Source: a virus
Strand: one strand, 5' to 3'
Virus record (IMG/VR): IMGVR_UViG_3300009180_000108
Span: 1 to 36,806 of that record
Length of the DNA stretch: 36,806 nucleotides
The position numbers and the translations under genes were made by a program. Below are positions 29,516-32,518 of this stretch, in pieces. The notes beneath the pieces are model-generated. The model saw nothing but the letters and a program-made list of their open reading frames with translations. It did not search any database and was not told where the DNA came from. Numbering within the stretch: the stretch's first letter is position 1; each line of letters starts with the position of its first letter.

Positions 29516-30145
29516 TTAGTGTATATGTTGATTTGCAATTTCCCGAACAATTTGCTCATAGTAGAGTCGGGCGGCTTCTACTTTGACCTTGATCTTTTCC
29601 TCCAAGACCAAATTTCTTTCATACGGCACTAGCGTAACGCGCAATTCACGGTTGATGTGGTCAACCTGGTGCAGACTTGGCGCTTCCCATCCAATCAGAT
29701 CGTCAGGCGTTGACACTAGGCAATACGCAATTTCGGCATAGGGCTTGTCCCACAACATCATGTAGGCGCGTAATTGCCATTCATAGCCTTTGTCCTCGCC
29801 CTGTTCAGCCAGCACGGGAAAAGTTGCAAGCGACCAACTTGATTTGATGTCAATGATCTTGTGCGTTGCCACAATGTCGGCTTCGCCAGTAATCCATGCG
29901 TTTTCACGGCGCTCGGTGTTCTTGGCGTAGCTGGTCAACTTCACGGCGTTGTACAGGTCAATGGACGCATCCTCAACGCGAATGCCTTTGTCCATGTACT
30001 TGCTAGTGATGCGTTCGTCATAGCCGTAGACAAATTCTTTTGCCAGTTTGGTGACGTAGGTTTTTGCGCCTACGGACAATTCGTCTTTACCTTTGCCGTC
30101 CGTCATAATGGCAGACAAGGCTGATGCTCTGAATAGGATGCTCAT
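29516..30145 (-). CDS. PD-(D/E)XK exonuclease (YqaJ/RecB-like)
   Basis: A 209-residue nuclease. The motifs in order are Glu58 in KGIRVEDASIDLYN, Asp90 in NAWITGEADIVATH, and D99-I-K101 in KIIDIKSSWS, the core of lambda-exonuclease-like phage nucleases. The QLRAYMMLWD segment after it is also usual. It resects 5-prime ends so that the ERF annealing protein can load. The start overlaps the ERF stop (ATGA). It is the middle gene of an ERF-exonuclease-SSB cassette. Confidence 0.85.
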   Translation of the reverse strand: MSILFRASALSAIMTDGKGKDELSVGAKTYVTKLAKEFVYGYDERITSKYMDKGIRVEDASIDLYNAVKLTSYAKNTERRENAWITGEADIVATHKIIDIKSSWSLATFPVLAEQGEDKGYEWQLRAYMMLWDKPYAEIAYCLVSTPDDLIGWEAPSLHQVDHINRELRVTLVPYERNLVLEEKIKVKVEAARLYYEQIVREIANQHIH

Positions 30146-31522: not shown

Positions 31523-31702
31523 ATGAATAACTTAGAAATTGCAATCAAAACGTGCGGAGGGGTCACTAAGCTGGCTGAGAAGCTGGACGTAAAGCCTAAC
31601 CGAATACATAACTGGCGTACCAGGGGCGTTCCTGATGGCTGGCTGTCGCTGATTCGGATAAAGTTCAAGCGTCAGATTGCAGAAGCTAAAAAGTTGATGT
31701 AA
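31523..31702 (+). CDS. Cro/YdaS-like DNA-binding regulator
   Basis: A 59-residue protein, too short for many gene callers. The helix-turn-helix is LAEKLDVKPNRIHNWRTRGV, with the following PDGWLSLIRIKF typical of Cro/YdaS-type proteins (the ...W..RGVP..W pattern). It is expected to bind the two operators in the adjoining divergent control region. The start codon lies at the predicted transcript start, with no ribosome site. No partner CI-type repressor or integrase is visible. It is the first gene of the rightward early arm. Confidence 0.85.
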   Translation: MNNLEIAIKTCGGVTKLAEKLDVKPNRIHNWRTRGVPDGWLSLIRIKFKRQIAEAKKLM

Positions 31703-31711
31703 GATTGAGGC

Positions 31712-31732
31712 ATCCCTTGGCGGGGATTTTTT
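31712..31732 (+). terminator. Intrinsic terminator after the regulator
   Basis: ATCCC-TTGGCG-GGGAT forms a 5-bp stem followed by six T (31727-31732, counting the final stem base). It lies 10 bases past the Cro-like stop codon. The position is like lambda tR1 after cro: it would cut rightward transcription before the replication genes. Confidence 0.7.
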
Positions 31733-31736
31733 CAGC

Positions 31737-31818
31737 AAGACTTAGACGGGACACTGCTGGTGCTGACCAGTCCGCCAACACCGGAAACGGTGAGTGTCTC
31801 GCCTAAGTCTTTTTTTTT
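31737..31818 (+). ncRNA. Three-way-junction RNA ending in a T9 terminator
   Basis: The closing stem pairs 31737-31755 with 31793-31811: 17 Watson-Crick pairs, one G-U and one A-C mismatch. Inside it are CTGGT-gctg-ACCAG (31757-31770) and CACCG-GAAA-CGGTG (31779-31792), the second with a GNRA tetraloop and stacked directly on the closing stem. The joining segment is 8 bases. Nine T (31810-31818) follow, so the whole element is also a strong terminator. The ribosome site of the DUF1376 gene begins right after the T run. I recognise no known RNA family. Confidence 0.82.
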
Positions 31819-31825
31819 GGACTTT

Positions 31826-32518
31826 ATGCATTACTACAAACGAAACCTTGGCGACTATGCCAAGAAAGCGGGTAGGCTAACAATGCTTCAGCACGGTGCG
31901 TACACGCTTCTTATTGATTCGTGCTATGACCGTGAAGTGTTTCCTACATTGGAGCAAGCCTTGGAATGGACTTGGGCAGCAACAGAAGCCGAAGTTGAAG
32001 CCGTCAAATTCATTCTCAATCGGTTCTTTACGTTAGACAAAGATGGCTGCTATGTCCAGCAAAGAATTCTTGAAGAACTGCTTCACTATCACAAAAATGC
32101 GGACATCAACAAACGAATCGCAGACGAAAGGGAAGCGAAACGTAAGGAAAAACGCACGAACCGTGAACAAAACGTAGACGAAGCGCCACCTAACCATAAA
32201 CCACTAACCATTAACCAAGAACCACTAACCAAAGAGAAGGCGCAGGACAAGCCTGCTGACGATTTGTTTGATGCGTTTTGGAAAGCCTATCCCAAAAAGA
32301 TGGGTAAAGATGTTGCCAAGAAAGCGTTTACCAAACGCAAGGTAGGCAAGCAACTACTGCAAGAAATCTTGGTAAGCCTTGACCAACAAAAAAAGACAGA
32401 CCAATGGAAAAAGGATGGTGGTCAATTCATACCAGCACCAGCTACTTGGTTGAACCAAGGACGTTGGCAAGACGAAGTTATCCCTGTTCAACAATCTAAC
32501 TTACCTATCTACTCATGA
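31826..32518 (+). CDS. DUF1376-type replication protein
   Basis: A 230-residue protein. The N-terminal DUF1376 domain is clear: MHYYKRNLGDYAKKAGRLTM, LQHGAYTLLIDSCYDRE, then W.W...EAEVEAVKFILNRFF. A charged linker (EREAKRKEKRTNREQNVDE) leads to a C-terminal region FDAFWKAYPKKMGKDVAKKA and ATWLNQGRW, a tail found in phage replisome organisers. It probably recruits the helicase encoded downstream to the origin. The ATG at 31826 follows GGA 5 bases upstream; a GTG at 31760 lies in the RNA element and is rejected. Confidence 0.83.
   Translation: MHYYKRNLGDYAKKAGRLTMLQHGAYTLLIDSCYDREVFPTLEQALEWTWAATEAEVEAVKFILNRFFTLDKDGCYVQQRILEELLHYHKNADINKRIADEREAKRKEKRTNREQNVDEAPPNHKPLTINQEPLTKEKAQDKPADDLFDAFWKAYPKKMGKDVAKKAFTKRKVGKQLLQEILVSLDQQKKTDQWKKDGGQFIPAPATWLNQGRWQDEVIPVQQSNLPIYS

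Follow-up and report, generated by a model that had tools for sequence, protein, structure and literature searches.

In phage lambda, nutR/tR1 lies between cro and the replication genes, and termination there would gate those genes; termination at tR1 requires Rho, and nut consists of a short boxA/boxB site. The put RNA of phage HK022 antiterminates in cis through the zinc-binding domain of the RNA polymerase beta' subunit. It is approximately 70 nt long, consists of two stem-loops with a short triplex, occurs in two copies per genome (one per early operon) and has no terminal U-tract; putR follows the PR start at a distance of approximately 270 nt (PMC9378689). EAR (the epsC motif) and JUMPstart, both structured 5' leaders, exert their effect on transcript elongation (PMC2864571). 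A further RNA relevant to the present locus, int-alpA (Rfam family RF02996; 71-nt model), is of unknown function.

Position of the element and comparison with known systems

We analyzed a complete virus record of 36,806 bases (the window), in which a structured RNA (referred to below as the element) lies between a small regulator gene and a replication operon, flanked as follows.

31523..31702, plus strand: small HTH (Cro-like) gene (phrog_8008, DNA binding; phrog_409, transcriptional regulator)
31819..31828, plus strand: Shine-Dalgarno GGA and ATG 31826, abutting the U-tract (UUGGAC; spacing conserved)
31826..32518, plus strand: first gene of the replication operon (primosomal/replication initiation, DUF1376-like; phrog_9327, E 7e-52; phrog_270, E 5e-25)

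The rightward gene order is HTH regulator, element, primosomal/replication-initiation protein and DnaB-like helicase; among the genes that run leftward, in divergent orientation, are those of an Erf-like annealing protein and of an exonuclease. The stop codon of the HTH gene lies 9 nt 5' of the element, so the two presumably share one transcript. The first replication gene has a ribosome site that starts at the last U of the U-tract, in agreement with the initial annotation, which had placed it directly after the RNA.

The element thus shares its position with lambda nutR/tR1, but differs from it in being a putative intrinsic-type terminator inside a folded RNA. The initial annotation had also drawn a comparison with HK022 put; it holds for position (each is a structured RNA made beyond cro in the nascent rightward early transcript) but fails for structure and copy number, because the element, at 107 nt, combines a U-tract with four stems and two covarying pseudoknots, and is present exactly once in the window (no second copy was found in the leftward operon) and once in each of the 22 records with a match. 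A put-like action, in which the nascent RNA would bind the elongating polymerase and make it resist later terminators of the early operon, would fit both the post-cro position (approximately 190 nt from the likely start, as against the approximately 270 nt of putR) and an elaborate fold ahead of diverse early genes; given these differences in architecture and copy number, together with the lack of a copy in the leftward operon, we give it a small chance. The single copy per record rules out a mobile or multi-copy element.

EAR and JUMPstart differ from the element in sequence, hosts and genes, and no family in Rfam 15 matches it. The int-alpA RNA occupies the same slot in relatives and likewise has a three-way junction, a closing stem that runs into a U-tract and pseudoknot potential, but there is no correspondence in sequence or helices, and the partner strand of its pseudoknot follows the U-tract, whereas those of the element precede it; with the int-alpA covariance model, nothing in the window reached the gathering score, and no match was listed at E<=5 for 31640-31850. 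A literature search at the level of titles and abstracts found no description of the family, which is apparently a new and undescribed family of structured RNA.

Extent and fold of the RNA

The initial annotation had marked positions 31737-31818 as a three-way junction with a GAAA loop and a T9 run, too regular to be a chance hairpin. Folding of this segment confirms it (minimum free energy -40.3 kcal/mol, z = -6.7), with none of 200 shuffled sequences as stable. Sequence comparison indicates, however, that the segment is part of a larger whole, a four-stem, two-pseudoknot RNA that spans 31712-31818 (approximately 107 nt) and whose closing stem (P2) has 17-18 bp.

31712..31727, plus strand: P1 hairpin (stem 31712-31716/31723-31727; hexaloop L1, UUGGCG, 31717-31722); covaries
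31717..31722 with 31773..31778, plus strand: pseudoknot PK1, UUGGCG (L1) with CGCCAA; covariation
31732..31737 with 31761..31766, plus strand: pseudoknot PK2, UCAGCA with UGCUGA of the P3 loop; covariation
31738..31755, plus strand: P2 closing stem, 5' strand (8 bp, an A-C mismatch, 9 bp; the single mismatch is A31746 x C31802)
31756..31771, plus strand: P3 hairpin (stem 31756-31760/31767-31771, 5 bp; 6-nt loop UGCUGA, 31761-31766)
31772..31778, plus strand: junction linker CCGCCAA (unpaired C31772 plus the PK1 3' strand CGCCAA)
31779..31792, plus strand: P4 hairpin with GAAA tetraloop
31793..31810, plus strand: P2 closing stem, 3' strand; covariation in the 100-member alignment
31810..31818, plus strand: U-tract (U9), directly on the closing stem with no spacer

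Relatives detected by blastn came from IMG/VR phage contigs and from three phage records: two Manatee Spring genomes and the isolate Pseudomonas phage AH02, whose single copy spans 29521-29628. In the true relatives the L1 loop reads UUGGCG and the linker CGCCAA, and the strand before P2 complements the P3 loop with letters that vary by phage; the P1 loop, the linker and the P3 loop therefore belong to a single RNA with two pseudoknots. Several details of the first reading change as a result. The element begins at 31712 rather than 31737 and includes the hairpin 31712-31727, which had been taken for a simple terminator 25 bases upstream but is pseudoknotted into the same RNA. The two perfect 5-bp arms are indeed present, as P3 and P4, but the P3 loop UGCUGA pairs with 31732-31737, and the interior linker is not free, pairing through CGCCAA (31773-31778) with the upstream hexaloop. 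We rejected P1 as an independent terminator, because only 6% of 86 distinct members have at least five T in the next 6 nt. We infer a compact bundle of helices in which P1-PK1 would extend up beside P2 and P3-PK2 would double back down beside it.

Covariation in approximately 100 homologues

We evaluated the fold in approximately 100 homologues assembled from phage contigs. The members are related and partly clustered, so the following counts are not counts of independent events: among 42 diverse members, 96.8% of cells are paired (75.1% after shuffling), 360 cells are doubly changed (98 after shuffling) and 30 of 42 pairs have both-sided changes, and in the 100-member alignment 98.8% of cells are paired (35-44% in slid controls) and 29 of 35 pairs are doubly changed. 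Covariation exceeds both the column-shuffled and the slid controls, and none of 500 shuffles reaches any measure. A search for compensatory changes in homologues, which had been proposed as a check, is thus strongly positive in both alignments.

All four stems contribute in the 100-member alignment. The P1 stem pairs vary as CG/UA/AU and GC/CG/AU; P2 has both-sided changes in 16 of 17 pairs, with 97.5% of its cells paired; and four of the five P3 pairs and three of the four counted P4 pairs covary, the P4 loop being GNRA in 63 of 100 members. For PK1, all six positions are complementary in 100/100 members, in five different sequence pairs with double-sided changes at four of the six, although the PK1 letters were fixed by the scan pattern and their invariance among pattern matches therefore carries no weight. 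Members found without the pattern (L002, L068, L402 and L005) have other letters with full complementarity; the variants outside the pattern are UUGGUC/GACCAA, UUGGUG/CACCAA, UUGACG/CGUCAA and UGGGGA/UCCCCA. PK2 takes 46 distinct complementary pairings, with covariation in all seven columns of the 42-member alignment, and its longest complementary run averages 5.87 between a member's own strands versus 3.31 when partners are swapped between members.

The same alignments bear on which molecule is selected. The wobble G31756-U31771 is G-U in 97/97 distinct rows, and at other pairs U-G occurs in 30/97 rows and G-U in 25/97; because such pairs would be mismatches on the opposite strand, it is the plus-strand RNA that is under selection. 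A DNA element (origin or operator) is disfavoured by these invariant and frequent G-U pairs.

C31772 (C in 100/100 members) is the sole base that is both unpaired and invariant. A ligand-sensing riboswitch, with the closing stem as its terminator, would explain the aptamer-like junction with pseudoknots and the leader position, but we found no conserved unpaired ligand pocket beyond this one base, the conserved junction bases vary with compensation and the downstream genes have no common metabolite; we consider this reading extremely unlikely.

Distribution of the family

Scanning with a pattern of both conserved strands yielded at least 120 viral stretches, most of which share the fold, and a covariance model separates true members (59-110 bits) from the remainder (<=19 bits). 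In bacterial genome contigs, the best model score among the pattern matches listed was 18.5 bits, and no true copy was found in 399 Pseudomonas and 401 further genomes: 12 of 13 matches in Pseudomonas genomes are one near-identical sequence that lacks the element's stems, and the other is unrelated. A limited first look with the model in four Pseudomonas genomes gave no match, and a plasmid search returned one 34-nt chance match and nothing else. Within the scope of these searches, we reject a bacterial chromosomal or prophage element.

In other carriers the gene upstream often encodes a different Cro/YdaS-like protein, its stop codon often lying 4-24 nt from the element, and the downstream genes are unrelated (DUF1376, O-like, ParB-like, SNF2-like and GIY/HNH-like). 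At the level of BLAST, no phage protein family is present in all of 19 carrier genomes (the largest is in 12 of 19); a phage-encoded partner common to all carriers was accordingly not found at this level, at which remote homologues could be missed. In one relative (L072:2954-3059) the element is 98% identical to that of the window and the DUF1376-type protein that follows only 36% identical, which points to a recombination joint at the element.

Comparison of homologous sequences demonstrates evolutionary support for the fold, its strand, its terminator form, its leader position and its single copy.

Terminator form, spacing and proposed mechanism

The closing stem is followed by U6-9 in 86/86 distinct members; at least five T were demanded by the selection pattern, and members found by protein or by covariance model share the U-tract anyway. 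A stable stem with an immediate U-tract, the form of an intrinsic terminator, is therefore present in all members, and the terminator-like end that the initial annotation had placed between the Cro-like regulator and the replication operon is upheld. The base of P2 in the window is A-U rich (two to three G-C among the lowest eight pairs), so termination here may be weak.

The U-tract also stands at a nearly constant distance from a start codon, with 7-14 nt from its end to the start codon in nearly all members and 16-21 nt from the edge of the closing stem to the ATG. A start codon lies within 20 nt of the U-tract in 79% of elements versus 13% of 119 other terminator-like sites on the same contigs; the remaining approximately 21% of elements probably have, for the most part, short or truncated downstream frames. 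In 77 of 92 members UUGG comes after the U-run, and U-run length and the gap to the start codon are anticorrelated (r -0.56). These regularities could mean that the replication mRNA is capped on its 5' side by the RNA bundle, which would act as a translation or mRNA-stability leader, with the U-tract recruiting ribosomal protein S1 and termination irrelevant: the spacing of U-tract, GG and ATG is fixed, the stem edge lies just outside the expected 30S footprint and the Shine-Dalgarno sequence is free in the fold. We consider this unlikely, because a zero-spacer stem and U-tract is the signature of an intrinsic terminator, which S1 binding does not need, because phage compaction alone could explain minimal spacing, and because point substitutions within the U-run would be expected to give such an anticorrelation.

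The terminator-like 3' end could alternatively belong to a stable, trans-acting sRNA, or to the 3' end of the cro mRNA, with the downstream gene on another transcript; Rfam, in keeping with this, classes the slot-equivalent int-alpA as an sRNA. However, a promoter does not fit between the U-tract and the ribosome site, almost every conserved base is paired, leaving no free conserved antisense region, and the gap to the upstream HTH stop is often, as noted, a few nucleotides to two dozen. We regard this reading as very unlikely. The operon, lacking space for another promoter ahead of its ribosome site, would depend on read-through, and the terminator would have to be leaky or conditional.

Our preferred model, to which we assign an even chance of being correct, is that the element sits in the 5' leader of the early operon as a conditional intrinsic terminator that acts in cis, at a nutR/tR1- or putR-like position, and is recognized by a host factor. 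RNA polymerase from the early promoter would cross the cro-like gene and reach the element approximately 190 nt after its likely start; the P1 and P3 pseudoknots could form before the 3' strand of P2 emerges; and when P2 closes on the U-tract, the polymerase would either terminate or read through into the replication operon, with the tertiary fold setting or changing the ratio of the two. The element would in this way probably decide how much of the replication operon is made. The contact would most likely be a host component (RNA polymerase, a Nus factor or the ribosome), because the same RNA precedes unrelated genes and no phage protein family was found in all carriers at the level of BLAST. 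Besides the A-U-rich base of P2, two observations weigh against a conditional terminator: an RNA that enhances translation or docks on the ribosome could equally have a U-tract and start codon with fixed spacing, and in phage AH02 and in the group of L113, L150 and L155 the element lies within the operon rather than after cro.

In a few members, sequence resembling that of the element recurs at the ribosome site. In a divergent member (L005:2029-2160) an exact repeat of the P1 hairpin UUGCUGGGGAGCAA covers the ribosome site after the U-tract, ahead of an HNH-like gene, and the junction linker could pair with either UUGCUGGGGAGCAA copy; in L167 and L173 the L1 sequence UUGGCGG(G) is repeated in the ribosome-site region just after the U-tract. 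The L005 case is suggestive of a linker that may switch between L1 and the ribosome-site UUGG, and the linker and ribosome-site UUGG of L402, which lack covariation, run counter to such switching.

Other folded RNAs in the same slot

We examined loci of O-like replication proteins, ranked by likeness to one carrier and hence not a random sample, and found the element just before the O-like gene in 40 of 80, with different folded RNAs there in many of the others. The int-alpA RNA is in this slot at or above gathering score in six (L431, L069, L020, L022, L041 and L006) and below it in four (L416, L394, L407 and L368), and, in related phages, stands directly before replication genes of the DUF1376 or O-like kind, so that it shares the genomic slot of the element. 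Copies of int-alpA or sub-threshold relatives lie directly 5' of replication genes at L431:1396-1503 and L069:2955-3045 and in L416, L367, L394 and others.

Covarying pairings of int-alpA include CACCUU/AAGGUG, CUCCC/GGGAG and CCGCCC/GGGCGG, and, judged by eye, nearly every aligned copy has an inner loop that complements the bases immediately 3' of the U-tract. This partner is made only after the U-tract, so that, if the pairing is real, the RNAs could not act as terminated sRNAs alone; the alignment suggests that int-alpA may be a cis leader RNA rather than an sRNA.

Two further kinds of RNA were seen in the slot. At L404:1350-1500, a hairpin with loop GGACAAG and a terminator-like hairpin with loop CUUGUCC form an apparent kissing pair, followed by U6, AUUGGAG and ATG. 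At L413:1350-1500 and L435:725-875, a long imperfect hairpin containing GGAAUUUCCACC ends close 5' of the start codon of the O-like gene.

Conclusion

The element represents a large and very well supported RNA family, which many environmental phages carry at a key point of control. The element and the orphan int-alpA stand in for each other ahead of the same replication genes, which suggests that the two have a common cis function and do not work as sRNAs. It is possible, if doubtful, that these unrelated leader RNAs (the element, int-alpA and others) are interchangeable forms of an RNA-only switch module that would control the polymerase or first ribosome without a phage partner, doing the work of lambda N/nut. 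If the conditional terminator model is true, the family would show how early operons are gated in phages without recognizable N or Q proteins.
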